IMG/VR virus record: IMGVR_UViG_3300033153_010880
Coordinates: 1-34,730 of that record
DNA from: a virus
Reading direction: 5' to 3' (one strand)
DNA: 34,730 nucleotides
How positions within the stretch are numbered: position 1 is the stretch's first letter; every line of letters begins with the position of its first letter. Made by a program: the position numbers and the translations under genes. This document shows, piece after piece, positions 4,126 to 27,070 of the stretch. Under the pieces are notes generated by a model, which worked only from the letters and a program-made list of their open reading frames with translations, did not search any database and was not told where the DNA came from.

Positions 4126-4351
4126 TAGTTTCGATCCTAAAAGCAGCTTCGTCGCTTATTATTGTTGGTGATTTACGCTCACCTATAATATTACCACGAG
4201 TCCCTTTGAGATCCAAATTTCTAACATCTAAGTTTAATGGTTTATATGCATATTCTTTAGGTTTAAGATTTCTAATTAAGTAGATAACTAAAACAATGGT
4301 GACTAGTGATATCACTATGTTAAAGGTGCTTAGAGCATTTAAAACATCCAT
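4100..4351 (-). CDS. Single-pass membrane protein (lysis candidate)
   Basis: This 83-residue protein has one membrane segment near the N-terminus (about 9-27, TFNIVISLVTIVLVIYLI). A polar, basic tail follows with no other motif. It overlaps both neighbours: the GNAT gene stop and the next coiled-coil gene. A pinholin-like or spanin-partner role is possible. No family is recognised. Confidence 0.55.
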   Translation of the reverse strand: MDVLNALSTFNIVISLVTIVLVIYLIRNLKPKEYAYKPLNLDVRNLDLKGTRGNIIGERKSPTIISDEAAFRIETNERTASNR

Positions 4352-4857
4352 TCTTTTGCCTTTACTGAATACAGGTGAGCGTCTAAATAATCGCCATCTT
4401 TAAAATAAAAATCCCGTCTATCCCCTTCAAATTTCATACCTATCTTTTCAAAAGTACCCGAAGCAGGATTACCAGCAAACGTCTCACCCCATATGAGGTT
4501 TAAGTTTAGATCTCTAAACCCATGGGTAAATAAAGTTTTAAGAGCTTTACAGGAAAACCCCTGGAGCTGGTATTTTCTAATAATGTACAAAGAAAACTCG
4601 GCCCTTCGGTTTATCATGTCTATGTCCGTAAGGCCGCACACCCCTACTATCTCTTCTGAAGAGTTATGAACTTCAAACATAGAAATCTTAGGGTCGTCGT
4701 TTTGTTTGATAAACCATTCGTGCTGATCTAGTTCAGAGATTAAACCGGTTTGTCTACACCACCTTCTAATCTCTGGGTCGTTTCTTTGGTTGCGCATGAT
4801 CTCAAGATTTTCCTGGGTGATGGGTTCTAACACCACACCATGTTTAAAATCAATCAT
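4339..4857 (-). CDS. GNAT N-acetyltransferase, PseH-like
   Basis: This 172-residue GCN5-type acetyltransferase begins with the LEPITQENLEIMRNQRN segment typical of sugar-amine acetyltransferases of the PseH/RimJ branch. It also has the EIVGVCGLTDID strand (about 69-80), AEFSLYI (86-92) and an acetyl-CoA loop at YQLQGFSCKAL (96-106), followed by NPASGTFEKIGM (130-141). PseH transfers acetyl from acetyl-CoA to the 4-amino group of a UDP-6-deoxy amino sugar in pseudaminic acid synthesis. Five other sugar genes in this genome make a sugar substrate more likely than a protein one. It is the last sugar gene in the leftward cassette and overlaps a 63-aa gene upstream by 8 bases. Confidence 0.75.
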   Translation of the reverse strand: MIDFKHGVVLEPITQENLEIMRNQRNDPEIRRWCRQTGLISELDQHEWFIKQNDDPKISMFEVHNSSEEIVGVCGLTDIDMINRRAEFSLYIIRKYQLQGFSCKALKTLFTHGFRDLNLNLIWGETFAGNPASGTFEKIGMKFEGDRRDFYFKDGDYLDAHLYSVKAKEWMF

Positions 4858-5041
4858 TTTCTAACGTCTCCAAAGTCCACTCTATAGCGTCGATAGGTGT
4901 TATCTTTTCCTTATCAAACAATTGGTGAAGCGTAGATAGGTAGGCTTCAGTTTTACCTTTTAGCTTACTTTCTAGTTCGTTTATCTCAACTTGCATTCCT
5001 TTAAGAGTAATTATTAAATCTCTAATATCATCCTTGTCCAT
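4850..5041 (-). CDS. Small helical protein inside the sugar cassette
   Basis: This 63-residue, acidic, all-helical protein (IRDLIITLKGMQVEINELES, then a second helix) has no recognised family. It overlaps the aminotransferase end by 14 bases and the acetyltransferase start by 8 bases, so it is translated as part of the cassette. A possible role is a small partner of a neighbouring enzyme; nothing more can be said. Confidence 0.55.
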   Translation of the reverse strand: MDKDDIRDLIITLKGMQVEINELESKLKGKTEAYLSTLHQLFDKEKITPIDAIEWTLETLEND

Positions 5042-6224
5042 TCTCTCTCACTTTCATAGCAAAGGGTGAAGAGGGCATATCGCCTTCAAGTTGTACGTTA
5101 CCTTGTTTAATTTTAAATAGGATTTGTTCTATATAAGCCAATACCTCTTCATTGTGAGATATATGAGCAAAATTATAAAACCAGCTCTTGCAAAAGAGGA
5201 TACGTGCTTTTGCACACTCTTGAAAAAATAAAGCTCTTGTAAGCTCATCGCCTTCAAATACCCCCCTAGTTGGATAGCCGACGATTTTAATTTTCTCTGG
5301 TAAAAACTTGTTAAACTCATCTATGAAATGTTGGCCTTCAGCCCAAAGGTAATTGATATTAAAATCTGATTTTCTCTGCATTAAATCCACAACGGCCTGG
5401 CAAGCTACAAGAGATAAAACCTCCCCTGCATAGGTGGAGCTAATAAAATAGTTACCGTCCATGATTTCTTTTTTACCACCAACTGCAGCTAGTGGTAAGC
5501 CGTTTGCCATAGCCTTACCAATAATAATTAAATCTGGATAGATATTAAAATTTGAAGCGCACGAATAGTCTTTATATCTAAAGCCGGTAATTACCTCATC
5601 AAAGATTAATATAACTCCAGTCTCATCGCACCTTTCTTTTAAGGCTTTTAACCATTCAATGCGCTCTCTAGAGTTATCCACAATTACAGGCTCCACAATT
5701 ACTGCAGCCACCTTTTTTGTAACATCTTTTAAACTCTTTAAAGTTTTTACAAAGTCTCTTTTGGGAACACCACTAGCAGGTGGTGTTAAACCAACAAAGT
5801 CGTCATGCCACCCATGATAGCCTTCACTAAGCACCACATCTCTACCAGTTGCAGACCTTGCTATTCTTATAGCTGCAGTACAGGCCTCACTACCACTTTT
5901 TAAAAACTTAAACTTATCCACAAATGTAAAAATCTGCTTTAGCTTTTCAGCGCACTCCACCTCATGGTGAGTAGGAAAACTATGAGAAAAACCTCCATAA
6001 AGATTTTTAATAATAGCCGCGTTTACAGTTTCGTTACCGTACCCCACAAGGTTCGCACCAAGGCCGCATATGTAATCTAGATATTTATTGTTATCTAAAT
6101 CATAGAGGTGACTACCAACACCACCTCTAACCTGCTTAGGGTAAATTCCATTTACATGACTTCTAGGATGTTTTGAATTTGTCAGTACATCCTGGGCAAT
6201 ACAATTTTGAGCTCTAATCCACAT
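5028..6224 (-). CDS. Class III PLP aminotransferase (GSA-aminomutase-like)
   Basis: This protein of about 398 residues has the class III aminotransferase/glutamate-1-semialdehyde aminomutase fold. It shows GSEA (about 111-114), YHGWHD (136-141), FDEVITGFR (208-216, with the PLP-ring aspartate) and the PLP lysine in IIGKAMANG (Lys 237). Beside a sugar dehydratase, oxidoreductase and cytidylyltransferase it most likely puts an amino group on a keto-sugar rather than taking part in haem synthesis. It may replace PseC, which normally belongs to a different aminotransferase class. ATG 6224 is preferred, a few bases after the upstream stop; an in-frame TTG at 6248 is possible but has no good site. 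Confidence 0.85.
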   Translation of the reverse strand: MWIRAQNCIAQDVLTNSKHPRSHVNGIYPKQVRGGVGSHLYDLDNNKYLDYICGLGANLVGYGNETVNAAIIKNLYGGFSHSFPTHHEVECAEKLKQIFTFVDKFKFLKSGSEACTAAIRIARSATGRDVVLSEGYHGWHDDFVGLTPPASGVPKRDFVKTLKSLKDVTKKVAAVIVEPVIVDNSRERIEWLKALKERCDETGVILIFDEVITGFRYKDYSCASNFNIYPDLIIIGKAMANGLPLAAVGGKKEIMDGNYFISSTYAGEVLSLVACQAVVDLMQRKSDFNINYLWAEGQHFIDEFNKFLPEKIKIVGYPTRGVFEGDELTRALFFQECAKARILFCKSWFYNFAHISHNEEVLAYIEQILFKIKQGNVQLEGDMPSSPFAMKVRENGQG

Positions 6225-6228
6225 AATA

Positions 6229-6930
6229 TTAATACCTAAATAGTCCAAAGTTTTGTTGTTTAATTTTCTCTGTCTTTCTCTGTACTGACTCGTAGTTATT
6301 TCTAACCCTGATCAGTTCCTCTTCAGTGTCCACACTAATTTTAATAGTACTGAAATCATGGTGTCCTATAATATGAGCTATCCTTGCCCAACGTGGTGGT
6401 TTTTTCCTTAGCATAGTGGTGACGTGTTCTTTGTCCTCGGCCAATGTTACTGTCTCCAAAAGATAGTCCATAGCCTCACGACTCATGATCTCACAATCAA
6501 AACCGTCAGGCATAGTTCTGGTCTCTGGACAAACGTTATGTACATAGTCAAGTCGATGTTTAACACACGTCATTATATGCTTGGTAATAAGAGGGCTTGG
6601 AATTAAAGGGCAATCTGCAGTAATACGGACCAAATATTTAGGATCGTATTTCTCTAAAGCTTTTCCGTATCTACTTAGTACGTCGTCCTCTGATCCTTCG
6701 ACTATGTTTTTATGATACTTTTTAAAAGACTCGTCGCCAAAAGGTATTAACAAACAAACTGAAACATGTATTCCATGGTTCACGCTTTTTCTATTAATAT
6801 GATTGGCTGCACTTTCGCACGTATCAATAACATGCTCGATTATTTTCTTATCACCAACTTCCATAAAGCATTTACCTGGAAGTCTGGCATTACCACTACG
6901 TGCTTGTATTCCTATCAGGACATTTATCAT
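6229..6930 (-). CDS. Sugar cytidylyltransferase (SpsF/PseF/NeuA-like)
   Basis: This 233-residue nucleotidyltransferase has a nucleotide-binding loop, QARSGNARLPGK, at 9-20. EDDVL (81-85) and RITADCPLI (102-110), with the metal-binding aspartate, are typical of SpsF/CMP-acylneuraminate synthetases. It should activate a 3-deoxy sugar acid with CTP to give a CMP-sugar, the last step before transfer. The NeuB-type synthase at 26.1-27.1 kb would supply such an acid. It overlaps the oxidoreductase gene upstream by 35 bases and precedes the aminotransferase. SpsF-type enzymes are a sister group to NeuA, so the exact sugar cannot be read from the sequence. Confidence 0.85.
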   Translation of the reverse strand: MINVLIGIQARSGNARLPGKCFMEVGDKKIIEHVIDTCESAANHINRKSVNHGIHVSVCLLIPFGDESFKKYHKNIVEGSEDDVLSRYGKALEKYDPKYLVRITADCPLIPSPLITKHIMTCVKHRLDYVHNVCPETRTMPDGFDCEIMSREAMDYLLETVTLAEDKEHVTTMLRKKPPRWARIAHIIGHHDFSTIKISVDTEEELIRVRNNYESVQRKTEKIKQQNFGLFRY

Positions 6931-7531
6931 TTAAATATTCCACTACTTTGCTATGTGCGTGAACAATGTAATTTAAATCAGGTTTGGGATTTTCCAGCCA
7001 GTCTTCAATGTTTTTGACATATGCCATATCCATATCAGCAATAGAGACAGGAGCCCCATTAATTTGACAGGACCATAGAGGGCTATCGTTTTTTAATTTC
7101 ACACTAGATTTAGCTAAAGCTAAAATACTAATGCAATCCCATGCTAGAGAGTCCTTGCCTGTTTTGAAAAAATTGTATGAAGTATGACCTTCATAATCTC
7201 TTGGGTAATTTAAATATTTATATTGATTAATCATTTGAAGGTTTAAACTAGGAAGGTCCCTTAGTCCCCAAAGATCCTTAATTCCATGCTCAATTATAGA
7301 AAGAGGCTTTTCACAAAGTATGGGCACGTTACCATTTTGGTAATATAAATTTCTAATGATCTTTAAATGAGAGTGAGTTGACGTCGCTACAATAAAACCG
7401 TCGCAATCTTTAGTGGGGGGGTTAATTCCTAAGTCAATATCAACGTGTTCAACTTTAAGGTAGTCAAGTATCTTACAATACCTTTGGCCCATGTTACCTA
7501 ATGCTCCCACCACACCTATCTTTTTTAACAT
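6896..7531 (-). CDS. Short Gfo/Idh/MocA-type oxidoreductase
   Basis: This 211-residue protein has a Rossmann NAD(P)-binding N-terminus (IGVVGALGNMG at 5-15), the FIVATSTHSH segment (46-55) and the hallmark CEKPLS (73-78) of Gfo/Idh/MocA sugar dehydrogenases. Usual members have about 330-400 residues, so the C-terminal substrate domain is reduced. The frame is open and the gene overlaps both neighbours, so this looks like a compact form rather than a recent break. The likely role is oxidising a sugar hydroxyl to a ketone, which the nearby class III aminotransferase could aminate. It starts at 7531, overlapping the stop of the dehydratase gene. Confidence 0.75.
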   Translation of the reverse strand: MLKKIGVVGALGNMGQRYCKILDYLKVEHVDIDLGINPPTKDCDGFIVATSTHSHLKIIRNLYYQNGNVPILCEKPLSIIEHGIKDLWGLRDLPSLNLQMINQYKYLNYPRDYEGHTSYNFFKTGKDSLAWDCISILALAKSSVKLKNDSPLWSCQINGAPVSIADMDMAYVKNIEDWLENPKPDLNYIVHAHSKVVEYLNDKCPDRNTST

Positions 7532-8367
7532 GGTAGCACCTCGTCAATCATAGCGTTTATTTGTTTGTCTGAAAGTTTTGGAGCGTTGTCACTACGAAGA
7601 CAATAACTATGATTTGAAATCAAACACTCATGTATTTTCTCACCAGGTCTAATACCTATCTCTTCAGTCTCATGTTTAATATCTAGCCTTTTAGCAATAA
7701 GCTCTATTAGGTTTGCTATGCTAGTCGCCTTCATTGGCGGGACATGTAAACCAAATGGGGCTCTTTTGATTTTCTTTGAAACAAAATCAATAGCGTCGTC
7801 CAGGGTAATAAAAAACCTAGTCATGTCTCCATGAGTTATGTAAGCCTTTTTCTCTTTTTTAAGTGTCTTAACAAATTGGTGTATCACGCTACCTCTAGAG
7901 CCAAACACGTTACCCCAACGAAAAACATAGTACCCATTAAGTTTGTCTTTTAACCAAATGGACTCACCAAGGCCCTTACTCATGCCGTAAGCATTTATAG
8001 GGAGCACGGCTTTATCAGTTGAGAAATAAATACATCTACCAACCTTAGTGTTAAGGCATGAATGATAAACGTTTTGAGTTCCTAAAACATTTGTCTTTAT
8101 AAACTCGTCTACAAACCTCTCGCCTTTATCCACATGCTTTAGAGCTGCAGTATGAAAAACTATATCGTAATGTTTTTCTCTAAAGACTTCAGAGACTCTT
8201 TCTTTATCTCTGATATCACCAAGCAAGTAATTAAAGTCTGGGAAATCTTTTTGCATTTCGTATTGCTTTAATTCGTCTCTAGAGAAAATAGTGATATTAT
8301 TTTCTTTATAAAACTCAGCAAGCTTTTTCCCTAAAGAGCCTGTACCACCAGTAATTAAGATATTCAT
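7525..8367 (-). CDS. UDP-GlcNAc 4,6-dehydratase, PseB/FlaA1-like
   Basis: This 280-residue short-chain dehydrogenase/reductase has the NAD(P) loop TGGTGSLG (6-13), FSRDELKQYEMQ (28-39) and GDIRDKERV (50-58). The catalytic residues Asp118, Lys119 and Tyr127 lie in STDKA and YGMSK, with the same spacing as the FlaA1/PseB triad. RWGNVFGSRGSVI, MTRFFITLDDA and EIGIRPGEKIHECLI are also characteristic of PseB. The enzyme converts UDP-GlcNAc to a 4-keto-6-deoxy sugar, the first step of pseudaminic acid synthesis. It begins with a GAGGTG site and overlaps the membrane-protein gene upstream (ATGA). It is slightly shorter than bacterial homologues but has all key residues. Confidence 0.88.
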   Translation of the reverse strand: MNILITGGTGSLGKKLAEFYKENNITIFSRDELKQYEMQKDFPDFNYLLGDIRDKERVSEVFREKHYDIVFHTAALKHVDKGERFVDEFIKTNVLGTQNVYHSCLNTKVGRCIYFSTDKAVLPINAYGMSKGLGESIWLKDKLNGYYVFRWGNVFGSRGSVIHQFVKTLKKEKKAYITHGDMTRFFITLDDAIDFVSKKIKRAPFGLHVPPMKATSIANLIELIAKRLDIKHETEEIGIRPGEKIHECLISNHSYCLRSDNAPKLSDKQINAMIDEVLPC

Positions 8368-8606
8368 TTCACACCTCTTGGATTATGAATGAAAATCTCT
8401 TCAGGTGAAATACGCTCAACTCTTATAAGAGCGTCACCAGCCATTAAGTCTCGTAAAAACTCCTGAAGCTCAATAGATTGTTGCTGTGGTGGTTGTGTGA
8501 TTAATCTACGCTGTGTTCGGTGATAGCGATAACAAAGGATGGTTAAAATAATGTTAACAATAATAGACCACGATAAACCAATAATAAAACTTAAATCAAT
8601 ACTCAT
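8364..8606 (-). CDS. Small membrane protein at the head of the sugar cassette
   Basis: This protein has about 80 residues from ATG 8606. It has one membrane segment (about 5-24, LSFIIGLSWSIIVNIILTILCY), then a basic and Gln-rich cytosolic tail ending IRVERISPEEIFIHNPRG. A longer reading from TTG 8675 would overlap the terminator stem and is unlikely. Its stop overlaps the PseB start. It could be a holin, or a membrane anchor for the sugar enzymes. No family is recognised. Confidence 0.55.
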   Translation of the reverse strand: MSIDLSFIIGLSWSIIVNIILTILCYRYHRTQRRLITQPPQQQSIELQEFLRDLMAGDALIRVERISPEEIFIHNPRGVK

Positions 8607-8650
8607 ATAAATACCCATAATAAAAATAAAACATTTTGTTACAATAAAGG

Positions 8651-8683
8651 AAAAGAATAGCCCTTGCAAGAGCAAAGGCTATT
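8651..8683 (-). terminator. Hairpin terminator after the tail-fibre gene
   Basis: Read leftward, AATAGCCTTTGC and GCAAGGGCTATT form a 12-bp stem (one G-T pair) with a 4-base loop, followed by CTTTTCCTTT. It begins 8 bases after the stop of the tail-fibre gene. It divides the structural genes from the sugar and lysis genes, which must be reached by read-through or by a promoter I could not locate. Confidence 0.8.
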
Positions 8684-8690
8684 TGCTTAT

Positions 8691-9800: not shown

Positions 9801-9803
9801 GAT

Positions 9804-11975: not shown

Positions 11976-11978
11976 TAG

Positions 11979-14238: not shown

Positions 14239-16140
14239 TTATCTACGCCCTTTCAAGTTGTAAGTTATGTTAAGACCTAAAATCTTGAATTTTTGATCTA
14301 CTTTATTTTGGTTATCAAACTTAAATTGTATTCGCTTACCGTGAACTGTACCAAGGAATTTTTTAAGTTCCTTTTCGTTCTCACCACCTCCCCATGGGTC
14401 CGTGCCTAATCTAATCGTGCCCCAAAGGTTTGAGCCAGGATCTAAATCAATAACTGTGGTGTTACCGTCGCCTTTATCAGAGTCTACCTTTTGGGTAAAG
14501 TTCATAAAATAAGCGCCTGGTTGCTCATAAAGGATGTTGGTACTTCTGAAATCTTTTTCAAAAGTATCTTGTCCATTATTACCACTAAACTCTTTAGTCC
14601 AGTAATACGAGTTAATAGCCGTGTTATTGTCGTTAAATGTATCACTATTCATAGCATACATAAAACCATCGTCGTCACTAGTTGCATAATAAAGAGTACC
14701 GTCTAATACAGCCATTTGAGCTGCACTTAATCCCGTCCATGGAGACCAGGTAAACTTTTGAGGTTTACCAAGGTTTTCGATTGAAAAGTCAAAAACATAA
14801 ATCCTATTATTTATAATGCTACCGCTTGCATACGTGACAGTAATGTAAGCCTTGTTTTGATACACCATAGAGCTGATATTTCTTAAAAAAGACTCTTGGA
14901 TATTAAACATATCCGGCTCTATTTTATCTGACTTTAAAAAAGAACCTGCAGCTGAAACGGTTAATAGCGTCGCGTTTGGATCTACGGTATCACCTGATAA
15001 AGCCGCAAACCCTACAAACTTTTCAGACTGTGTAGCTGCAAACATAACTTTGTTTGAGTACATAAATGGAGCAAAAGGACTATTACTTCCAAATGGAGTT
15101 CTAACCTTTATATCCGACCAGTCCGAAGGGCTTGTAGTCGGCATGTAAATAATCCAAGTAGAGTTTTGGCAAAATACCACTACCGAGTTATCGTACACAG
15201 CTAGGCCTTTAGGGATATCACCACTGGTATCACCGATACGCCTGAAACTTGTTGCTTTAACAACGTAGGGGTTTGCTATTTCTGTGTACTTTATAAAATT
15301 AGTTGCGTTGTCAATCATAAATAAACGGGCTTGGTGAAATAGCACACAACAATAATTAGGTGGCTCACCTTGATCGGTTGGAGCTGTCGCGCCTAAAGCC
15401 CCGTCGGCAATACCGTCCTCATAGGTTGTTGTGGTGTTATCGTCAATTGTCGTAACAAGTTTAAACGCTGTACCACTTGCCTCTGTTCTATAAATCTTTC
15501 TAGTGTTAACTCCAAAGCTTTGTGGAGCTACCGGAATAGATGTAAGCAAGGCGTTTTCGGTTGCAGCCGTCCAGGTGGAAGTTACTGGGCTTACATCGCC
15601 CTCAACTAAATTAGAATTGATATAAGTGAATTTATATTGATAGTCACCGGTTAGTTCTGTTCCTGTGGCTGCAGTTGCTACCGTAGATGTAGTGGTTGGA
15701 GCTGGTACACCGTGCCTTGTAAATTCCGCACCATTGTATTTGTATGGGGACTCTGTACCGTTACCATAAAATATGTAGTCTTCATACTCTGCAGCGCTTA
15801 CCCTTACACCAGGTGTAAAAATACTTTGAGCCGATGGTATTGTAATAAACGAAGTACCTTGTAAATCATATAAAGTACCACCAAACCAAGCTGTCATTGT
15901 TTCACTAGCGTCGCTATCATGCCTTACATAAAGACCATCACAAGCAAAAGACCCCACAGCTGCAGTATTTACTAAATCCGTGCCGCCCCTGGTCTCAACG
16001 CTACCTCTACCGAAAACCACATTTTGACAATCTGGTGACTCATTGTCGGGTATTAACTGGACGTCAAATTTATTGTTAAGACCCCCATCGAACCCGATCC
16101 GACCTTTAGACGGATAAATAATATCAAATTTACTACCCAT
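14239..16140 (-). CDS. Tail hub / nozzle-like stabilisation protein
   Basis: This 633-residue beta-rich protein starts with SKGRIGFDGGLNNKFDVQLI, then NESPDCQNVVF and GSVETRGGTDLV. This opening is shared by short-tailed-phage tail tube or stabilisation proteins (P22 gp10-like/T7 gp12-like). Repeated blocks such as VRVSAAEYEDYIFYGNG and SVVVFCQNSTWIIY fit a beta-propeller. The C-terminus has LWGTIRLGTDPWG. It should seal the portal/adaptor and carry the fibre. It follows the adaptor gene by one base. Confidence 0.75.
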   Translation of the reverse strand: MGSKFDIIYPSKGRIGFDGGLNNKFDVQLIPDNESPDCQNVVFGRGSVETRGGTDLVNTAAVGSFACDGLYVRHDSDASETMTAWFGGTLYDLQGTSFITIPSAQSIFTPGVRVSAAEYEDYIFYGNGTESPYKYNGAEFTRHGVPAPTTTSTVATAATGTELTGDYQYKFTYINSNLVEGDVSPVTSTWTAATENALLTSIPVAPQSFGVNTRKIYRTEASGTAFKLVTTIDDNTTTTYEDGIADGALGATAPTDQGEPPNYCCVLFHQARLFMIDNATNFIKYTEIANPYVVKATSFRRIGDTSGDIPKGLAVYDNSVVVFCQNSTWIIYMPTTSPSDWSDIKVRTPFGSNSPFAPFMYSNKVMFAATQSEKFVGFAALSGDTVDPNATLLTVSAAGSFLKSDKIEPDMFNIQESFLRNISSMVYQNKAYITVTYASGSIINNRIYVFDFSIENLGKPQKFTWSPWTGLSAAQMAVLDGTLYYATSDDDGFMYAMNSDTFNDNNTAINSYYWTKEFSGNNGQDTFEKDFRSTNILYEQPGAYFMNFTQKVDSDKGDGNTTVIDLDPGSNLWGTIRLGTDPWGGGENEKELKKFLGTVHGKRIQFKFDNQNKVDQKFKILGLNITYNLKGRR

Positions 16141-17996: not shown

Positions 17997-18008
17997 AAAA
18001 ATATCCTA

Positions 18009-18359: not shown

Positions 18360-18361
18360 GT

Positions 18362-18631
18362 TTATCTCCCGAATACTGTCAAATAAAAGTCGTCGCCACT
18401 TGTAGCGCCTGTGATAGCAATAGAGCCAGCGCTTGCTGTGCTTGCAGCTAGTTCGTTTATCTTAAGGTTAATAGTTGTTGAAGCTGCACTTTTTGCAGTT
18501 AAGTGTGCGCCAGTTAGTACGTCCATACCTGTGTCAATTGTACCCGTTGCAGCGTCGGCTGTGACTACTAATTGGTGAACTCTAGAGTTACCAAATACTG
18601 TTTTATCTGCAGTTACTACTGTGTATGCCAT
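18362..18631 (-). CDS. Small beta-rich virion protein
   Basis: This 89-residue protein of Ala/Thr/Gly-rich strands ends DDFYLTVFGR. It begins 11 bases after the Maf-like glycosyltransferase gene and is followed 2 bases later by a similar small protein. Probably a decoration protein; it is a plausible substrate for that transferase because it is Ser/Thr-rich, but nothing shows this directly. Confidence 0.55.
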   Translation of the reverse strand: MAYTVVTADKTVFGNSRVHQLVVTADAATGTIDTGMDVLTGAHLTAKSAASTTINLKINELAASTASAGSIAITGATSGDDFYLTVFGR

Positions 18632-18642
18632 TAGTTTATCTC

Positions 18643-19668
18643 CTAAAAAAGTACTGTTTTTGACTCAATTTCAGGGGTTTCAGCTTGTCCCCTTAAATGC
18701 TCGTGCATTCCATATAACTTAAACACATCCTCTAGGTCCATTTGTTCTAATTGTACTATATTACCTTCCCTATATGCACCAAAAATACCACCTTCAGTCG
18801 CATTGATGTACTTACCTGGAACTTGTAGCACCACATAATCAAACCAGCATTTAAAGTTATAATAAGACCCCCATGTAAGCACTCTATTGCCAAAGATATC
18901 GACCGCGCTTACACATTGACCGATATTCTTATCGTATTTAGAGTCCCAGGCGTGAAAGGTTCTTTTCTCTTCGTTAGAAAAACAAAAGTCTGTACCAACA
19001 AAGATTGTAGTCTGGGATCCAAGATATCCTTTAGCTATGTAAAGGCATGCACCTAATACAGTTCCACCATTACTGACAAAAGTGTAAAAAGGCTCTATTT
19101 CTTTAATTTCGTCTCTTATTTCGTCACTTGGTATCGGGGCATTGTAAAGATAAATTTCACCTTGCCACTTTCTGAGTAGGTCGGGGTGAGAGCCGATGTA
19201 TGCTATTAAAGCACGGTCCTTCGTTTTGTTCCAATAATCCTCTTCGGACTTAGAGCCACCTTCACATACCTCTTCGATGGTCACCGGTCCAGCGTCAAGA
19301 GATACATAAAAGTCCGGTTCGGCTCCTAAGTCTTCCATGTAATGGAAGTTATGAAGGCAAGATATCAGTCTCACCCCGTTTGGCCTGTTTTTCAAAAGAT
19401 GAGCATTCTTTTTTAATGAAGGGCCGCTACCAGCAATAATGATCGGGTCATGTTGAAACTTATTAAAAAGTTGCCCTAGACCATGATCTTTAAAACTACC
19501 AAAACGTTTTTTGTTTTCGCGCATATTGGATAACCACGTATCTCGCCACTTGTCCATGGTTGCGTCGTCCGCACTACAAGACTTTTTGTACAAATCTTGC
19601 TTTTGAACAGGTGGTTGCATTATGTAGTTTTGTAATTCCAATAAAATGTTTGCGGTCTTAACCTTCAT
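18643..19668 (-). CDS. Maf/DUF115-type glycosyltransferase-like protein
   Basis: This 341-residue protein has a helical N-terminus (1-72), then the DUF115/MptE-like core: PIIIAGSGPSLKKN (75-88), LISCLHNFHYMEDLGAEPDF (101-120) and YVSLDA (121-126). A later FVSNGGTVLGACLYIA and TIFVGTDFCF complete the pattern. In bacteria this core is shared by Maf flagellin glycosyltransferases, which add pseudaminic or legionaminic acid from CMP-sugars to Ser/Thr, and by MptE. Here the phage also encodes sugar-acid synthesis genes, so a transferase for virion proteins is the most economical reading. It is embedded between decoration genes, with GAGGA upstream. Confidence 0.75.
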   Translation of the reverse strand: MKVKTANILLELQNYIMQPPVQKQDLYKKSCSADDATMDKWRDTWLSNMRENKKRFGSFKDHGLGQLFNKFQHDPIIIAGSGPSLKKNAHLLKNRPNGVRLISCLHNFHYMEDLGAEPDFYVSLDAGPVTIEEVCEGGSKSEEDYWNKTKDRALIAYIGSHPDLLRKWQGEIYLYNAPIPSDEIRDEIKEIEPFYTFVSNGGTVLGACLYIAKGYLGSQTTIFVGTDFCFSNEEKRTFHAWDSKYDKNIGQCVSAVDIFGNRVLTWGSYYNFKCWFDYVVLQVPGKYINATEGGIFGAYREGNIVQLEQMDLEDVFKLYGMHEHLRGQAETPEIESKTVLF

Positions 19669-19690
19669 TTAAAAATATCCTCATCAATAA

Positions 19691-20170
19691 TTAAAATACA
19701 GAAATATAAGCACTTCCACTTGCATTTGATACTATCTCTGCAAGAGCTTTTCCGAGTACAGGACCGTTTCCAGTTGTGTTGGAGACGTTGACAAAAGTGC
19801 CATTGTCTGCAATTTCAACCATGCCACCAGCTGCAACTGTCGCGCTAGTTCCGTCCATTTCAATGTTAGTGATACCTTTGGTTACTAACCAGCCGTATGT
19901 ACCAGTTGTAAGTGTTGCATTTCTACAAACACCAACAACAATATCAGCACTTGTTACAGCTGAAACTGTACAAGACATGTCAGTAGCGCCAGCAACCAAA
20001 ACAGCGCCCAAACCTGGGTCGATGTCTTCACCACCTGCATTGTAAACCCAAACATACTCACGACCAGCTGCATTCATTCGAGTACCGACTGCAGGATGGT
20101 TTGCACCTAAAGCTGCAGTTACGTGTGATACACCGAACATTCGTACTGGAGAGTCAGAATAAAAAGCCAT
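19691..20170 (-). CDS. Head decoration protein
   Basis: This 159-residue beta-rich protein starts MAFYSDSPVRMFGVSHVTAA and contains YVWVYNAGGEDIDPGLGAVL and VVGVCRNATLTTGTYGWLVTKG, as in phage decoration or stabilising proteins encoded after the capsid gene. A strong AAGGGG site lies 6 bases before the start. It is 10 bases beyond the capsid gene. Presumably displayed on the capsid surface. Confidence 0.65.
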   Translation of the reverse strand: MAFYSDSPVRMFGVSHVTAALGANHPAVGTRMNAAGREYVWVYNAGGEDIDPGLGAVLVAGATDMSCTVSAVTSADIVVGVCRNATLTTGTYGWLVTKGITNIEMDGTSATVAAGGMVEIADNGTFVNVSNTTGNGPVLGKALAEIVSNASGSAYISVF

Positions 20171-20180
20171 GATTTTCCCC

Positions 20181-21104
20181 TTAAGCAGTTAAGCCAGTTA
20201 GTGCGCCATGTAGACGGTTATTACTAGAGCCAAAAGCTCCCATCCATACAAAACGTCCAACCATAACTCTTTGGTTAATAGGTCGTTGGAAGTCGTCAAA
20301 CTTAAAGTTTGCTTTTGGATGATAGAAAAGGTGCGCATGTTTCTCGTTAACCATAAACACGTGGTTTGCTGGGCAATGAGAGTCAGAAATAAATGGAGAT
20401 CCGTTAAACATTAGTGCAGTAAAACCGCCCTTAGCTGTTTCAGAGTCCATAAATCTTTGTTGTGGCTGAAGTAGATTGTAGTAACGATTGTAGTTTGCTC
20501 TTGTTGCCAAAATCACACTAGGTATTTCGTTATCAATAGAAGCGTCTTCGTAAACACTTTGGAGAGCTGCGATAGTCATAGTAGTTGTAGTACTATCGAC
20601 TTGTCCTTGCCACCAAGAGTTTGTTGATTGACTAATTCCACCAACTGTTTGATCTACAGCTACAATATCTCTAAGGCCAACAATAGACTTGGAGTCTGTA
20701 CCGTCGGAATAAAGGCCTGTACCTAAAGAGTCTTTAATTGTTTTTTCTGCGATCTGCATTTTACTTTTAACAAGACTTAGAACCTGTGCATCACCACTGT
20801 TCTTTAGCTCGTCCTCTTCAGTAACGGTTACATTAGAGTACAAAGACTTCCAATTATAACGGGCCGCTGAGATATTGTCATTGTCAGTTGTATCTAAAGT
20901 CTCGGCTCCAGAAAACCAGCCACTAGCAGTTGTAGTTGCATAGTTTAGAGGTACGTCGATTGTAGTTCCACCACCTATTGACTTATAGGCTCCCTGGGAC
21001 TTAATGCGCTTTAGATATGGGTTTGAGTCGAAAATGTTATCATACATTTGCTTTACAACAAATTTATGAGTAATTGCATTTAACTGGTCTATTGTAAGTG
21101 CCAT
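20181..21104 (-). CDS. Major capsid protein (HK97 fold)
   Basis: This 307-residue protein lacks an obvious cleaved N-terminal delta domain. Its pattern (FDSNPYLKRIKSQGAYKSIGGG, WKSLYSNVTVTEEDELKNSG, ILATRANYNRYYNLLQPQQR, FNGSPFISDSHCPANHVFMVN) fits major capsid proteins of short-tailed and related phages. A strong AAAGGAG site lies 7 bases upstream, as expected of the most abundant virion protein. It is preceded by the scaffold gene and followed by decoration genes. Confidence 0.88.
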   Translation of the reverse strand: MALTIDQLNAITHKFVVKQMYDNIFDSNPYLKRIKSQGAYKSIGGGTTIDVPLNYATTTASGWFSGAETLDTTDNDNISAARYNWKSLYSNVTVTEEDELKNSGDAQVLSLVKSKMQIAEKTIKDSLGTGLYSDGTDSKSIVGLRDIVAVDQTVGGISQSTNSWWQGQVDSTTTTMTIAALQSVYEDASIDNEIPSVILATRANYNRYYNLLQPQQRFMDSETAKGGFTALMFNGSPFISDSHCPANHVFMVNEKHAHLFYHPKANFKFDDFQRPINQRVMVGRFVWMGAFGSSNNRLHGALTGLTA

Positions 21105-21121
21105 TGATTTACTCCTTTAGT

Positions 21122-21991: not shown

Positions 21992-22013
21992 TTATAAAAA
22001 TCCTTTTAAAAAA

Positions 22014-22271
22014 TTAAACCATACCTTGTGGTCCTGCAGGTATTCCGCCCTGTTCAGCTGGTACAGCGCCACCTTGTTCTGGAGCTCCACCACCGCCTGC
22101 AGCGGCCTCGGCTATTGCTATAAACTCTTGTTGTACACCAAGCATTCTTTCACCAAGCTCTGGTGGAAGTTGTTCAGATAAAGCACCAAGCATTTGAGCT
22201 ATGGCCTCAACTGGGTTTGTCTCTGGTTGCCCCTCTTGTGGTGCTTGTTCTGGTGGTATTCGTGCGCCCAT
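22014..22271 (-). CDS. Small Pro/Gln/Gly-rich protein after the portal
   Basis: This 85-residue, low-complexity protein (PPEQAPQEGQPETNP, then a helix VEAIAQMLGALSEQLPPE) ends in repeated GG and EQGG. It starts at the last base of the portal gene and lies before the scaffold gene. It is perhaps a scaffold cofactor or virion component. Confidence 0.5.
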   Translation of the reverse strand: MGARIPPEQAPQEGQPETNPVEAIAQMLGALSEQLPPELGERMLGVQQEFIAIAEAAAGGGGAPEQGGAVPAEQGGIPAGPQGMV

Positions 22272-24064
22272 TACTGTGCTCCTTGTTGTGCGGCTGCAGC
22301 GGCCTCGGCCTCTTGACGCTCGGCTTGCCTTGCCATTATTTTATCTTTGTCTGGGTAATCCAAAATATTTAAAACTTCCTCAGCGTCAATGATCTGTCTA
22401 TCAAATAAAGCAAAGGCTTTATTTTCTTTTTCAGCGACGCTAAACGGAAGTGTCGAACCTGTATTAACTCTAACATCAAAGCTTGCTTCCATAACAAACT
22501 CTTTAGGTCTACTCGGAACCTCTTCACCTTTTTCGTTAGTAACAAACTCTGTCACCACACCAACCTTTTGAGGGCCTCTGTCTTCAATAGATATCTGAAA
22601 GAACTTCATAGTCTCATCTTTACCTACAATCCTAAAAATCTTAGGCATTCGGTAAAACTGCATAACCCTTGCAAGCCATTGCTCACCAACCTCTCTTAGA
22701 TAGCCGTCTAGGTTACGCATCTTTTGTTTAATGCGTGTTCGGCTAGCGTCCATGAGCTGTTCGATTGCGCTGGCTGCAGTTACGCTCCCTGGAGTTTGTC
22801 CCTTAGATACATCTTGAGACCCAGATACATTGTTAAACCAAACTTCCATTTGACTTAGCATATTCATATAGCTTGGATTAATACCAAGGCCTTGCTCACG
22901 TCTTACCTCTGAGCCTGCATTTTTCTCAATGATCATACCTGGAGCGTTTACAAAGTTGTTTGTATCCACACCAGCTGAAGTATCTACAATCCAAGCAGGG
23001 TTACCCATTAGGTTGACGATATCCAGAGTAAAGCTTAGGATCTTGTTAAATACTTGCTGTGGTGAGGCTAGTTGCTCAACTTCACTCACTCCCCAAAACT
23101 CCCTGGGAAGGATGTAGTTGTTTAGCTTAGCAAAAGGAATTTTACCGTCTTCGTAAGGGAGCTCTTCGTCTACCAGTAAAGCACCACTTGCAATTACTAC
23201 CATGCGGCCTTTAGGGAACTTCTTTCTAAGCTGGTAAATCTCATTACCCTCTTCGTCCTCGTCTTTAGTCTCTTCCAGGTCCGATGGTTTTAGATATCCG
23301 GTAATAAGCAGAGTTTTTTCGTTGTCTGTGGAAGCGCCACTAAACATCTTTTCCGCTATCTCTGGCATGTCTCTATCTGTGGTGAAAGTACGAAGTTTAA
23401 AGTCGTTTAAGTCTGTCTTTGAAGACTTAACAAAGTCCATAATGTCGGCTTTAATAAACTCAGCACTCTTTGGGTACATTTGTTTAAGGCGCTTAGTCTC
23501 TATCGGCTTAGCTACAAAGAACCCAATAGAGTCGGGGTCGTTTATATCGTTACACTCAGGATCAGGATAACAATAAAACGGGTCTTCGGACTTATACACC
23601 ACACTACCAAGTCCGAAGTCTAGCTTTTCGTCAAACGTTTGAGAGCTAAAGCCAGTACCATAAATGTAGCTATCATAAAGAACTTCTGTAACTTCCCTAA
23701 GCCAGTTATGCTTTTCCCAGTCGGACTCAGCTAGCTTTTCTAATACCTCGGCAAACTCTTTGTCTGAAGGATTTTGTGGAAGGAATGAAAAGCGGGGTCT
23801 TACGTCGGTTTGTAAGGGGACGTTTGATTGGATGGTAGTCCATATCATGTTGACTACCTCGGAATGCCAAAAGCTAGGTCTTTTAGAAGTCCACTGGGCA
23901 CCACGGAAAAACTTATAGAAGCTCATGAAATTTCTATCATACTTGGATTTTGCTTTTTTCCAAGATTGAAACAATTTCATAGTGTCTTTAATTGTTTGCT
24001 GATCTTTTTCAGGGATATCGGGGTTAGGTCCGTCTTGTGATCCACTTTCTACAAAGTCACTCAT
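22271..24064 (-). CDS. Portal protein
   Basis: This 597-residue protein has a helical N-terminus, the FRGAQWTSKRPSFWHSEVVN segment, and WTTIQSNVPLQTDVRPRFSF. A central LNNYILPREFWGVSEVEQLA and a stem-helix stretch with GSVTAASAIEQLMDASRTRI and KQKMRNLDGYLREVGEQWLA follow. These are typical of portal proteins, the dodecameric ring through which DNA enters and leaves. It follows the zinc-ribbon and large terminase genes in the usual packaging order. The C-terminus is Ala/Gln/Glu-rich and probably extended helix (barrel-like). Confidence 0.85.
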   Translation of the reverse strand: MSDFVESGSQDGPNPDIPEKDQQTIKDTMKLFQSWKKAKSKYDRNFMSFYKFFRGAQWTSKRPSFWHSEVVNMIWTTIQSNVPLQTDVRPRFSFLPQNPSDKEFAEVLEKLAESDWEKHNWLREVTEVLYDSYIYGTGFSSQTFDEKLDFGLGSVVYKSEDPFYCYPDPECNDINDPDSIGFFVAKPIETKRLKQMYPKSAEFIKADIMDFVKSSKTDLNDFKLRTFTTDRDMPEIAEKMFSGASTDNEKTLLITGYLKPSDLEETKDEDEEGNEIYQLRKKFPKGRMVVIASGALLVDEELPYEDGKIPFAKLNNYILPREFWGVSEVEQLASPQQVFNKILSFTLDIVNLMGNPAWIVDTSAGVDTNNFVNAPGMIIEKNAGSEVRREQGLGINPSYMNMLSQMEVWFNNVSGSQDVSKGQTPGSVTAASAIEQLMDASRTRIKQKMRNLDGYLREVGEQWLARVMQFYRMPKIFRIVGKDETMKFFQISIEDRGPQKVGVVTEFVTNEKGEEVPSRPKEFVMEASFDVRVNTGSTLPFSVAEKENKAFALFDRQIIDAEEVLNILDYPDKDKIMARQAERQEAEAAAAAQQGAQ

Positions 24065-24438
24065 TATTTACTTCCCTGTACTTCAATGCTGTTACTAAAA
24101 TAATCGTCGTAGGTCTTTTGCTTTTTGTCTTCACGCTGTTTTTCGAAACTAGTGTGCATTTTGTTGGGGTCTTCGTTACCTATTTCTACTAAATTTCGTT
24201 CTTTAGCTATTGTAGCACGATGTTTCGAGTTTTTCACCACTGTACCTAATGCCGGACAATAAGCCGACTCTTCGACTTTCTCACCGTAAAACGTACCACC
24301 AACAATCATGCGGTTACTTTTAGTGAGCTCAGTGTTGCATTTAGGACACACCTCTAGATCGTCAATATTTTCCATTGGCTTGTAAACATCGAACTCATGC
24401 TCACAGTCGCATCTATATGGATAACACCTTGCTACCAA
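24064..24438 (-). CDS. FmdB-type zinc-ribbon protein
   Basis: This 124-residue protein has a zinc ribbon like FmdB. Cysteines in RCDCEHEF (10 and 12) and CPKC (31, 34) bracket VYKPMENIDDLEV, followed by NRMIVGGTFYG. The C-terminal half is basic and helical. It lies between the terminase and portal genes, overlapping both by a few bases. It may help DNA packaging or regulate transcription; the family has no fixed phage role. Confidence 0.7.
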   Translation of the reverse strand: MVARCYPYRCDCEHEFDVYKPMENIDDLEVCPKCNTELTKSNRMIVGGTFYGEKVEESAYCPALGTVVKNSKHRATIAKERNLVEIGNEDPNKMHTSFEKQREDKKQKTYDDYFSNSIEVQGSK

Positions 24439-25748
24439 CTCTCTACCCCCTTAGGTCTTTCTTTTAGGATATCTGTTAAGTAATCCTGGGTTCTAACCTC
24501 TTGTCGAGCACTTTTAATTATTGACGATCTAATGTGAGTAGATTTTATAACATTAATATCAAAGGTTGCAATAGTAATATATCTATTCACGTCCATTGTG
24601 TGATCGTGCTGTTTAACTGGAAGCTTGTCTTTTTGATCTGCATTAGTATTAACTTCCTTATATTCAGGATAGTGATACGTCTCCATTTCATTAATAGTGT
24701 AACGGCCACATGCACTAAATATTTTAAATCGTCTAGTTTGTATCAGTTCATAGAATTTATCTAAACCAAGCCTTATCTCGTTATTAGCACCAATACAAGT
24801 TAGATGGTTTTTATTAAACTCCATTATGTACTCAGGCCTGGAGGGGTCGGCATAAAAAAGCTCTATTGGAAATATCTTTCTAGCTCTAAGCGCCACCTCT
24901 AACATGCTAGCTATCGTATGTCCGGACTTGTAGTGCTCAAAAACTTGGTAATGCCTACCTTCAGGGGTAATAGCTCTAACAAGTAAAACAAAAGGATCAT
25001 TGTACCCCCAATCGATACCACCAAAGAACCTAGTACCTGCAGGGAGCTCTTTAGGTAAGCAGATGTTTTCGTCCTCATCGAAGCAATCATAAACAAGACC
25101 TTCCATTTTATCGAATTGACCACCGTACTGCATATTAAAACGCCTGGGGTCCATGGTACGCTTTTTTCGTTCGTATTCTTTCTCTGGAAAATACGGGTTA
25201 TCTTTAGAGGTCTTTTGGACAAGCAGGCACTCGTCCATGATAGCCTTGTTACCTTTTCGATACGGCCTAATGTAATCCTTATAGAGCCAATTAAGAGAGT
25301 ACGGACTAGTAACAATTCTAATTGGAGCCTCTAGAAATGAGGCCCTTCCTTGGATTACTTCCCAAAAGTACAGGGAGTACAGTCCGGCCTCATCACACAA
25401 GATACCTTTAACGTCGGTGATACCTACTGCAGAGTCGGGATTAACTCCAGTTCTAAACCAGATTGTTGGACCCTGGTACATGATAAAGCAGTTGTTTTTC
25501 TTATCGAAATGACCCAGGCCTTTCATTGCAGCTAAAAATGGTGGAAGTGTGGATTGTGTCAAGATAGGAAAAGACGGGCTTGTAATGATAAAGTTGTTTT
25601 TAGACTCTGGGTGTTTATGGATCATCATTTTGAGCCACATTACACCACTCATGGTCTTGCCCCACTGAATTCCAGTTGCAGCAATCACAATGGGTTTATC
25701 TGAAAATATTACATCCTCTTGAGCCTGGGTGTGCGGTTTAAATAGCAT
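24432..25748 (-). CDS. terL: Terminase large subunit
   Basis: This 438-residue packaging motor has an N-terminal ATPase with ATGIQWGKT (Walker A, 24-32) and GILCDEAG (Walker B, 115-122, with catalytic Glu120). The C-terminal RNase H-like nuclease has GGIDWG (243-248, metal-binding Asp246) and FYADPSRPEY later. It cuts concatemeric DNA and drives it into the procapsid. It starts directly after the 118-aa gene and overlaps the zinc-ribbon gene by 7 bases. Confidence 0.92.
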   Translation of the reverse strand: MLFKPHTQAQEDVIFSDKPIVIAATGIQWGKTMSGVMWLKMMIHKHPESKNNFIITSPSFPILTQSTLPPFLAAMKGLGHFDKKNNCFIMYQGPTIWFRTGVNPDSAVGITDVKGILCDEAGLYSLYFWEVIQGRASFLEAPIRIVTSPYSLNWLYKDYIRPYRKGNKAIMDECLLVQKTSKDNPYFPEKEYERKKRTMDPRRFNMQYGGQFDKMEGLVYDCFDEDENICLPKELPAGTRFFGGIDWGYNDPFVLLVRAITPEGRHYQVFEHYKSGHTIASMLEVALRARKIFPIELFYADPSRPEYIMEFNKNHLTCIGANNEIRLGLDKFYELIQTRRFKIFSACGRYTINEMETYHYPEYKEVNTNADQKDKLPVKQHDHTMDVNRYITIATFDINVIKSTHIRSSIIKSARQEVRTQDYLTDILKERPKGVESW

Positions 25749-26105
25749 TTATGCCTTACTTTCTCCTTCAACGCCACGCTTCTCTCTGTCCATCTTCCTT
25801 ACTTTCAACACACACAGAGCATGATCAAGATCTGTCATAACTATTTTATTTTCATCACAAGGGAACTTGTCATCTAACCCTTTAATAATGAGCCATGCAG
25901 TCTTAATGATTGTATCAACCTGACACCCATTCACACCATTCTCTTTGATTGGGCCGTCTTGGATTTTGAAGGTTATTGTATTTTGCTCATGGTCAATGTA
26001 AATAGGGGAATCTTCAGTAACCCAATTAATCCCTTCTTCTCCTTCGTGAGGTTCAACCTTAAACCCACCAATCTCTCTCACACCCTTTAAAGTCTCTAGT
26101 GCCAT
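25749..26105 (-). CDS. 118-residue phage protein with GVNG/RGVEG signature
   Basis: This protein is of unknown function. FKIQDGPIKENGVNGCQVDT (about 46-65) and the C-terminal KMDREKRGVEG recall a widespread small phage family with GVNG and DRExRGVEG elements that is usually left as hypothetical. I cannot name the family safely. A very strong ribosome site (AAGGAGGT, 5 bases before ATG 26105) suggests high output. It sits between the sugar synthase and terminase genes, a spot where small terminases occur, but the sequence does not look like one. Confidence 0.65.
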   Translation of the reverse strand: MALETLKGVREIGGFKVEPHEGEEGINWVTEDSPIYIDHEQNTITFKIQDGPIKENGVNGCQVDTIIKTAWLIIKGLDDKFPCDENKIVMTDLDHALCVLKVRKMDREKRGVEGESKA

Positions 26106-26140
26106 GATTTACCTCCTTAAATAATTAATTAACTAGTTTA

Positions 26141-27070
26141 CTAAAGAGCATACCCCGCCTTTATATCATACTCAGCTTTAGTACCTTCTACTTCCTTCCA
26201 GTCCATTGGATTAACGTAACCATAATTACAATGACTATCCTTTTTAATCCTAAACGCACCATAGTTCAGTCCGTACCTTAGCACATCACCTTTTATAATA
26301 CGTTTCGTCGCCACAAGTCTTCGGTTATGAAGTAACACCATCGGGGTCTCACTAGTAGAAAAGTTACAGATAGGATCATCTTTATCTCTAAGGTATCTGG
26401 TCATGTTATCAAACTGATCAGAGTTTAGTGAATGTCCTGAGTCTGGAGTTTTAGCGTCGATACATGTTAGATGTTTTTCTAGCACCACTCCCATGTGGTG
26501 GTGTATTGCCATATAGGGAGCGTAGTAAACGTCGAGTGTATGGTCTGAATACCCAACTTTAAACCGTCCACTACTGAGAGCTCTAAGCCTATCAATTTTC
26601 CTAAGATCGTGATCTCTGCAGGGGTATGAGCTAGAGCAATAAAGAAAGGTGGTGTCGTCATGGTCTTCAACGTACTCCATTACCTGGAGTATCTGCTTTT
26701 CAGTCTTACCACCTGTGGATATAATTAGAGGCTTGTTCGTCTCCATTGCAGCGTCAAGTAATTGAGGGTAGCACATATCTGAGCTAGCTATCTTATGCCT
26801 ATCTACGAACTGATCGATCCGTTTAAGGTCTTTAGGGCAAAAGGCTGTACAGGCTAGCTCTATTTTGTAGTTATTCGCTACCAGTTTGAGCTTACCAATC
26901 CAATCGATCGGTAGCTCGTAACCCATTTCACCTTTAAGGCCGTACATAGACTTGTGGTCGTAACACTGAAACTTAACTACATCGGCTCCAGCTTGTTTAG
27001 CTTCATAGATCGAAGCTACACAATCACCATAGGTTTTCCAATTACTTCCAATATCCGCAATAATTAACAT
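26141..27070 (-). CDS. NeuB/PseI-type sugar acid synthase
   Basis: This 309-residue TIM-barrel enzyme of the NeuB family has VVKFQ (31-35), KIASSD (93-98), GYSDHT (173-178) and EKHLT (198-202). It ends with an antifreeze-like/SAF region (RRLVATKRIIKGD, 250-262). NeuB enzymes join phosphoenolpyruvate to a six-carbon N-acyl amino sugar (NeuB/LegI/PseI) to make a nine-carbon nonulosonic acid. It is a little shorter than the usual 330-350. It stands 18 kb from the other sugar genes, between a structural gene and the terminase block, on the same late strand. AAGGA lies upstream of the start. It cannot be told from sequence whether sialic, legionaminic or pseudaminic acid is made. Confidence 0.88.
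   Translation of the reverse strand: MLIIADIGSNWKTYGDCVASIYEAKQAGADVVKFQCYDHKSMYGLKGEMGYELPIDWIGKLKLVANNYKIELACTAFCPKDLKRIDQFVDRHKIASSDMCYPQLLDAAMETNKPLIISTGGKTEKQILQVMEYVEDHDDTTFLYCSSSYPCRDHDLRKIDRLRALSSGRFKVGYSDHTLDVYYAPYMAIHHHMGVVLEKHLTCIDAKTPDSGHSLNSDQFDNMTRYLRDKDDPICNFSTSETPMVLLHNRRLVATKRIIKGDVLRYGLNYGAFRIKKDSHCNYGYVNPMDWKEVEGTKAEYDIKAGYAL

Follow-up and report, generated by a model that had tools for sequence, protein, structure and literature searches.

Bacterial Maf enzymes use CMP-nonulosonates as donors and glycosylate Ser/Thr residues (PMC11339370; PMC3426422). For Clostridium Maf, an E. coli laboratory strain in which CMP-Neu5Ac accumulates has been used (PMC11339370). Flagellin loci of Aeromonas, Campylobacter and Clostridium carry Pse genes together with Maf, and they share with the phage locus described here PseB- and PseH-like proteins, NeuB/PseI and a CMP-transferase feeding a Maf-family protein (PMC3426422, PMC11339370). 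The Bacillus subtilis sps legionaminic acid pathway has an SpsF-type cytidylyltransferase, the NeuB-like SpsE and an acetyltransferase in common with the phage (PMC7439481). Cellular PseB-PseC-AKR-SpsF-AT3-PseG-PseH-PseI clusters (Aeromonas, Colwellia, Undibacterium, Endozoicomonas) share with it both gene order and the pairing of SpsF with a class III aminotransferase (AT3). A Gfo/Idh fold beside an aminotransferase and an acetyltransferase is also found in the WlbA/WlbE and GnnA dehydrogenase–aminotransferase routes. Among viruses, mycobacteriophage capsid and tail proteins are described as decorated by phage-encoded putative glycosyltransferases (Freeman et al. 2023, as cited in PMC12619734, PMC11256854).

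Sugar genes in a complete phage genome

The window, i.e. the whole 34,730-nt stretch of DNA analysed, is a complete phage genome, because it has an exact 114-base direct terminal repeat at both ends and a 694-codon ORF is restored when the circle is closed. Pfam matched each of the six enzyme families named in the initial annotation as well as the Maf/DUF115 protein (Table 1). The weakest of these matches, to the short Gfo/Idh-type dehydrogenase, is backed by a predicted Gfo/Idh fold (AF2, pLDDT 90) with WlbA as the best PDB match. The late-strand location was likewise borne out, as all seven genes lie on the minus strand along with structural genes.

Table 1. Features of the phage genome and the evidence for each
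Feature	Coordinates	Strand	Basis
Direct terminal repeat, first copy	1..114	none	exact 114-base match to 34617-34730
PseH-like GNAT acetyltransferase	4339..4857	-	Pfam Acetyltransf_3 7e-16
Small ORF, aminotransferase/acetyltransferase interval	4850..5041	-	position; no family match (Pfam)
Class III (GSA-like) PLP aminotransferase, AT3	5028..6248	-	Pfam Aminotran_3 8e-39
SpsF-like cytidylyltransferase, probable CMP-sugar synthetase	6229..6930	-	Pfam CTP_transf_3 7e-9
Short Gfo/Idh-type NAD-dependent dehydrogenase	6896..7531	-	Pfam GFO_IDH_MocA 1e-4 (just below gathering score)
PseB-like NDP-sugar 4,6-dehydratase	7525..8367	-	Pfam Polysacc_synt_2 2e-68
Small, probably membrane-anchored protein heading the sugar cassette	8364..8675	-	profile matches in relatives
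Maf/DUF115 (MptE-like) protein, proposed CMP-sugar:protein glycosyltransferase	18643..19668	-	Pfam 2e-23
Putative decoration protein, directly before DUF115	19691..20170	-	syntenic in 82/84 loci
Major capsid protein (MCP)	20181..21104	-	PHROG major head protein 2e-61
Terminase large subunit (TerL), usual downstream neighbour of NeuB	24432..25748	-	PHROG terminase 1e-41
NeuB/PseI-family nonulosonate synthase, C-terminal SAF-like domain	26141..27070	-	Pfam NeuB 3e-37
Direct terminal repeat, second copy	34617..34730	none	exact match to 1..114

The Pse and Neu labels given to these proteins stood at the level of family membership, but the equivalog cut-offs for PseB, PseH, NeuB, PseI and PseD were not reached. 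The PseB-like protein scored 223 bits against the NCBIfam PseB model (cut-off 408), the GNAT protein 61 bits against PseH, its best NCBIfam model (cut-off 93), and DUF115 17 bits against the flagellin modification protein PseD (cut-off 670). NCBIfam scores do not tell NeuB from PseI for the phage synthase. Among solved structures, its best relative, at 5e-20, is the pseudaminic acid synthase 8h2c. Since none of the proteins reaches these cut-offs, they are distant members of the PseB, PseH, NeuB, PseI and PseD families rather than those enzymes by name.

Catalytic residues, counted per column on alignments of phage copies, are almost invariant. The PseB-like proteins keep TDK and Lys throughout and Tyr in 24 of 25 copies, and the Glu and Lys of the Gfo/Idh EKP motif are invariant in 24. 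AT3 retains the PLP Lys and Asp in 27 of 28 copies. The synthase combines a NeuB domain with the attributes of the nonulosonate synthase family, namely four catalytic Lys/His residues (invariant in 28 copies) and the SAF Arg (in 26). Similarly, the SpsF-like enzyme has the CTP_transf_3 fold and conserved Arg/Lys/Asp motif of the SpsF/PseF type, with R11, R16, K20, D106 and H169 invariant in 26 copies, and is probably a CMP-sugar synthetase.

Conservation in an uncultured lineage

Relatives were found by DUF115 and alignment queries of viral contigs, among which the NeuB of this genome had no match as a lone query. The same DUF115 protein is encoded at about 150 IMG/VR loci, and the sugar genes are widespread in this never-cultured group of bacterial viruses rather than a single case. 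All seven genes (PseB, Gfo, SpsF, AT3, GNAT, NeuB and DUF115) are present in 20 of the 32 long records, and in all five of those with exact terminal repeats. Among the 31 relatives, sugar genes occur in 24–27, DUF115 in 30, the capsid gene in 29 and presumed replication genes in 0–1. NeuB, DUF115 and SpsF had no tblastn match among 50,697 phage records, and no match to a cultured phage was found. AT3 matches in the same records were mostly GSA-aminotransferase-like stretches in sparsely annotated entries.

The order fibre-PseB-Gfo-SpsF-AT3-GNAT is common to the lineage (long records, n=32), and profile searches place the small, probably membrane-anchored protein next to this cassette in most of the 32 records. 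NeuB is located about 18 kb away. In 33 of 37 loci it is found on the upstream side of TerL. PseB is absent from three records (G012, G024, G025) and Gfo also from three (G012, G029, G036), so neither is strictly required. Small ORFs resembling the one between the aminotransferase and acetyltransferase genes occupy the same site in many relatives, with weakly conserved sequence. Synteny and conserved catalytic residues in 20–30 divergent relatives rule out chance or an annotation artefact as the source of the gene set.

The absence of PseC and PseG, pointed out for this genome in the initial annotation, extends to its relatives. The models for PseC-type DegT (PF01041) and PseG (TIGR03590), both of which match in control genomes, had no match in any of the 32 records (this genome and 31 relatives). 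The canonical Pse route is therefore incomplete in these phages. The class III enzyme, suggested as a possible replacement for PseC, is indeed present without it, yet cellular clusters hold both. The phage AT3 has its best four matches from cells in Colwellia, Aeromonas, Undibacterium and Endozoicomonas (32–35% identity). They lie in PseB-PseC-AKR-SpsF-AT3-PseG-PseI clusters, one of them with Maf, and the class III enzyme sits there alongside PseC, not in its stead. For this reason, we do not accept simple replacement as proven and regard it as one of two live options.

The DUF115/Maf protein and the head operon

The predicted structure of DUF115 (AF2, pLDDT 95) was ranked by Foldseek closest to Maf (5mu5), followed by HPPK and then, still significantly, by the sialyltransferase ST8SiaIII. 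The match to Maf is limited to the core (TM 0.50 normalised by query length), and archaeal HPPK has the same fold. The protein has the PF01973 core with a sialyltransferase-like fold expected of the Maf family. The extra N- and C-terminal domains of flagellar Maf are absent (341 aa versus the 666-residue chain in 5mu5).

The order MCP-decoration-DUF115 is fixed (79/79 and 82/84 loci), DUF115 coming directly after the decoration gene in 82 of the 84 loci that could be tested. The decoration protein is a putative one, its role deduced from the fact that it follows the capsid gene. Virion and host surface had both been proposed as targets. Because DUF115 is fixed in the head operon of the whole phage lineage, its location favours the virion, with a structural protein as the presumed acceptor.

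In partial Mantel tests on divergence, which are liberal and were controlled for TerL and portal distances, NeuB correlates with AT3 (r 0.62), SpsF (0.44) and DUF115 (0.40), whereas DUF115 shows 0.05 with MCP and 0.01 with the decoration protein. Thus, DUF115 divergence follows the sugar enzymes rather than its structural neighbours. A structural gene at 14239 likewise correlates with NeuB (r 0.43). In one relative (G035), NeuB, PseB, SpsF and GNAT are missing and the AT3 has also lost its PLP Lys and Asp; this phage keeps DUF115 without the pathway.

Proposed pathway, alternatives and known systems

Profile, fold and comparative evidence support the proposal that the phage has a pathway of the nonulosonic-acid type and a Maf-like transferase to go with it. 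We consider it fairly likely that the phage makes a CMP-activated pseudaminic/legionaminic-type nonulosonic acid and attaches it to its own virion protein in the host cytoplasm; the particles of these viruses are thus likely to be coated by the viruses themselves with a sialic-acid-like sugar. The PseB-like dehydratase would produce a 4-keto-6-deoxy sugar, to which the class III aminotransferase would add an amino group, the ketone perhaps being prepared by the Gfo/Idh dehydrogenase. GNAT may then acetylate the aminated sugar, NeuB condense the free sugar with PEP, and the SpsF-like enzyme make the CMP-sugar. Finally, the stand-alone DUF115/Maf protein would transfer it to Ser/Thr in a structural protein, either while the head is being assembled or earlier. 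A bolder version, tentative and somewhat short of an even chance, has an undescribed nonulosonic acid as a core virion function of this uncultivated lineage. The route to it would be shortened, with a class III aminotransferase and Gfo/Idh standing in for PseC and without PseG, and a minimal stand-alone Maf would place it on heads, amounting to a virus-encoded sialylation-like coat.

A serious contender, though we would not put it at even odds, is that the host already has a Pse/Leg pathway, which takes care of the PseC and PseG steps or provides the sugar in free form. This pool would then be redirected or extended by the phage enzymes, for example by an extra Gfo/AT3 oxidation and amination, and DUF115 would transfer the resulting phage-specific sugar. 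The lack of PseC and PseG in 32/32 records fits such an arrangement, as does the coexistence of AT3 and SpsF with PseC and PseG in cells, which implies that the cellular AT3 does something other than PseC. Moreover, Gfo together with an aminotransferase and an acetyltransferase resembles WlbA/WlbE-type chemistry, in which oxidation is followed by amination, and WlbA is the best fold match. The phage PseB, NeuB and SpsF copies would then be redundant, yet their catalytic residues are intact across a very diverse lineage.

Other readings depart further from virion glycosylation. Modification of host flagellin or another host protein by DUF115, leading to a superinfection block or surface change, would agree with the flagellin glycosylation by known Maf proteins (PMC11339370, PMC3426422), and perhaps with the small membrane-type protein that precedes PseB across the lineage. 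We nevertheless find it unlikely: DUF115 has a constant place between the decoration and head genes, we noticed neither a flippase nor a polymerase nor a gtr-like set in the 34,730-nt genome, and the phage protein is about half as long as the 666-residue Magnetospirillum Maf chain. We also strongly doubt that the genes serve separate ends, with PseB/Gfo/AT3/GNAT/SpsF devoted to a different nucleotide sugar and NeuB to a host sialic acid analogue. The distance of NeuB from the cassette and the unseparated NeuB/PseI scores would allow this, but NeuB divergence goes with that of AT3 and SpsF more closely than phage phylogeny explains, the genes are jointly lost or decayed in G035, a single cluster holds all of them in cells, and SpsF works in Bacillus subtilis CMP-legionaminate synthesis (PMC7439481). 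The family name and the second rank of archaeal HPPK could suggest that DUF115 is a pterin/nucleotide kinase (MptE/HPPK) and no transferase. This is very improbable, and was ruled out as the main reading, given that Maf ranks above HPPK, sialyltransferases are significant too and the divergence of DUF115 is coupled with NeuB and AT3.

If virion glycosylation by this pathway is true, a large group of environmental phages has a sialic-acid-like coat as a core trait, as firmly kept as the capsid gene, and this coat could change adsorption or shield the particles. To our knowledge, protein glycosylation of phage particles has few known cases, and we found no earlier report in the literature of its nonulosonic-acid-based form. 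The set provides a small Maf and possibly a shortened pathway. It also offers an uncluttered context in which to ask what is made by the SpsF-AT3 pair, a common feature of bacterial Pse clusters.

The phage set differs from each of its closest counterparts. For mycobacteriophage virions, which are alike in relying on phage-encoded glycosyltransferases, the citing papers report no nonulosonic-acid pathway or Maf. Compared with the WlbA/WlbE and GnnA routes, the phage aminotransferase is of class III and its Gfo has only about 200 aa. The Bacillus subtilis sps pathway employs the SpsC aminotransferase and SpsG, serves the spore crust and has no Maf (PMC7439481). The cellular clusters contain PseC and PseG, both absent from the phage, and an aldo/keto reductase where the phage has Gfo/Idh; AT3 identity between the two is 32–35%. 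Flagellin loci, too, differ in having PseC and PseG, whereas the phage uses Gfo/Idh and encodes a 341-aa stand-alone Maf core within a virion operon.

Pathway genes in a complete phage genome

The window carries an exact 114-base repeat at both ends; when it is closed into a circle (34,616 bp), an open frame of 694 codons re-forms over the junction. It is therefore a complete phage genome, and genes missing from it are truly missing. The initial annotation had listed six enzyme families of nonulosonic acid synthesis and a Maf/DUF115 protein, and all seven are indeed found at the positions it gave, on the minus strand alongside structural genes (Table). The best informative NCBIfam models were PseH, PseB, NeuB/PseI and, weakly, PseD, with all matches under the equivalog cut-offs. 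The predicted model of Gfo (pLDDT 90) is closest in fold to WlbA, an NDP-sugar dehydrogenase.

Coordinates of the pathway proteins (starts, Pfam names) and other features
Feature	Position	Description
GNAT	window 4339	GNAT
AT3	window 5028	class III aminotransferase
SpsF	window 6229	CTP_transf_3
Gfo	window 6896	Gfo/Idh, slightly under threshold
PseB	window 7525	Polysacc_synt_2
DUF115	window 18643	MptE-like/DUF115
NeuB	window 26141	NeuB
Small ORF between AT3 and GNAT	window 4850-5041; relatives e.g. L022:1192-1440, L026:3121-3315	60-95 aa; many members
Small protein directly before PseB	window 8364-8675	N-terminal hydrophobic stretch, conserved C-terminal motif; most members
Relative G035	L222:8140-9087	shortened AT3, with Ala and Asn at PLP Lys/Asp positions
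Collagen-like ORF	L026:18915-20000, running into L027	522 aa, Gly-X-Y; just upstream of TerL in G012
Putative lipoprotein	window 29835-30779	proline-rich; matches a chlorophyllase-type hydrolase weakly; no counterpart found in relatives

Column counts on alignments of phage copies revealed conserved catalytic residues. Equivalents of NeuB K53, K129, H215 and H236, numbered after the Neisseria enzyme, are kept in 28/28 copies and the SAF arginine in 26 (the other two are gaps). PseB retains TDK and the second Lys in 25/25 and Tyr in 24/25, Gfo its EKP in 24/24, and SpsF its motif residues in 26/26. The PLP Lys and Asp of AT3 are present in 27 of 28 copies, the sole exception being G035. This phage has lost NeuB, PseB, SpsF and GNAT and retains DUF115. 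AT3 appears to decay after pathway loss, which would be expected of an enzyme acting in that pathway; G035 itself may use host sugar. An unplaced 228-aa ORF before its TerS may be a methyltransferase.

Spread and gene order

IMG/VR relatives, 44–62% identical in DUF115 scans, were collected with the DUF115 protein alone (19) and then with its alignment (149, of which 80 were kept). They form a single syntenic group ordered TerS, NeuB, TerL, portal, scaffold, MCP, decoration, DUF115, tail genes, fibre and sugar cassette. The putative decoration gene directly follows MCP in 79/79 loci and is itself directly followed by DUF115 in 82/84; in the remaining two, the called ORFs overlap, probably due to the start codon chosen. 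NeuB lies upstream of TerL in 33 of the 37 loci with room. In three loci (L006, L007, L012) two ORFs take the place of an intact MCP gene (in L007, 242 and 73 aa); an intron or insertion may be the cause.

Thirty-one longer relatives were examined in full. Together with the window, 20/32 records carry all seven genes, including all five with exact terminal repeats (the window, G028, G030, G031 and G040). The cassette keeps the order fibre, small membrane-type protein, PseB, Gfo, SpsF, AT3, GNAT, with PseB relocated ahead of TerS in G021 and G042. Sugar genes are detectable in 24–27 of the 31 relatives, close to MCP and TerL (29 each) and DUF115 (30), whereas for the window's presumed replication genes the count is 0–1; the sugar genes thus behave as virion genes. 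The small protein before PseB is a candidate spanin, holin or pathway anchor.

The proposed transferase and its candidate acceptors

The predicted DUF115 model (67 sequences, pLDDT 95.4, pTM 0.93) matched, in order, the Magnetospirillum Maf glycosyltransferase (E 6e-9), archaeal HPPK and human sialyltransferase ST8SiaIII, the latter including CMP-sugar complexes. Maf enzymes, whose PF01973 domain is similar to sialyltransferase Cst-II, modify flagellin at Ser/Thr using CMP-nonulosonates (PMC11339370); in Aeromonas caviae, cytoplasmic transfer of pseudaminic acid is attributed to Maf1 (PMC3426422). Compared with the 666-residue Maf chain, phage DUF115 (341 aa) is the core only.

Despite its site between capsid genes, DUF115 follows the sugar enzymes in divergence. 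In Mantel tests controlled for TerL and portal distances, sugar enzymes correlated with one another (NeuB–AT3 r 0.62, SpsF–AT3 0.58, NeuB–SpsF 0.44) and with DUF115 (NeuB and AT3, 0.40 each), in contrast to DUF115–MCP (0.05), DUF115–decoration (0.01) and NeuB–MCP (0.01). This is support rather than proof, since the test is liberal and NeuB shows a correlation with one structural gene as well (14239, 0.43). In the most likely mechanism, a CMP-nonulosonate made by the phage would be attached by DUF115, within the cytoplasm, to a virion protein. The decoration protein, MCP, the fibre (26% Ser+Thr) and two small Ser/Thr-rich proteins, 18362 (25%) and 17177 (23%), are candidates for the acceptor.

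Missing steps and cellular counterparts

As initially noted, PseC and PseG are missing: DegT-type PseC and PseG were not found in 32/32 records. Two routes remain. AT3 might perform C4 amination instead of PseC, with a phage or host activity freeing the sugar from UDP; alternatively, PseC and PseG would come from the host, with Gfo, AT3 and GNAT together adding a further modification. Some members have lost PseB or Gfo, showing that those steps can be met in other ways. The small protein between AT3 and GNAT, often helical-looking and in several members bearing a loose C-terminal P-x-x-A-h-D-h motif, occupies the position held by PseG in cellular clusters.

The four best AT3 matches in a genome scan (Colwellia, Aeromonas, Undibacterium, Endozoicomonas) are exactly the ones in nonulosonate clusters, which comprise PseB, PseC, aldo/keto reductase, SpsF, AT3, PseG, PseH or another acetyltransferase, and PseI; the Aeromonas locus also has a Maf gene. 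Among SpsF relatives in 398 genomes of the phylum of the cellular matches, SpsF–AT3 pairs and fusions recur, mostly with PseC and aldo/keto reductase nearby. Apparent fusions in bacterial loci L250, L251, L253 and L257, single proteins of ~680–720 aa, support a joint role in nonulosonate metabolism. In a Moritella Pse cluster, an SpsF-like domain fused to aldo/keto reductase is a proposed NeuA replacement (PMC7371886), and B. subtilis SpsF functions in CMP-legionaminate synthesis (PMC7439481). Phage NeuB forms one group (support 100/100) apart from 12 cellular sequences, a small outgroup, and so may have one origin.

NeuB, DUF115 and SpsF had zero matches among 50,697 phage records, and a search of mainly open-access literature did not turn up any description of a nonulosonic-acid pathway that a phage uses for its virions. 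Gene order in the phage cassette matches that of the cellular clusters, except that PseC and PseG are absent and Gfo/Idh takes the place of aldo/keto reductase. Among known kinds, the nearest are mycobacteriophages with glycosylated virions (Freeman et al. 2023, as cited in PMC12619734 and PMC11256854).
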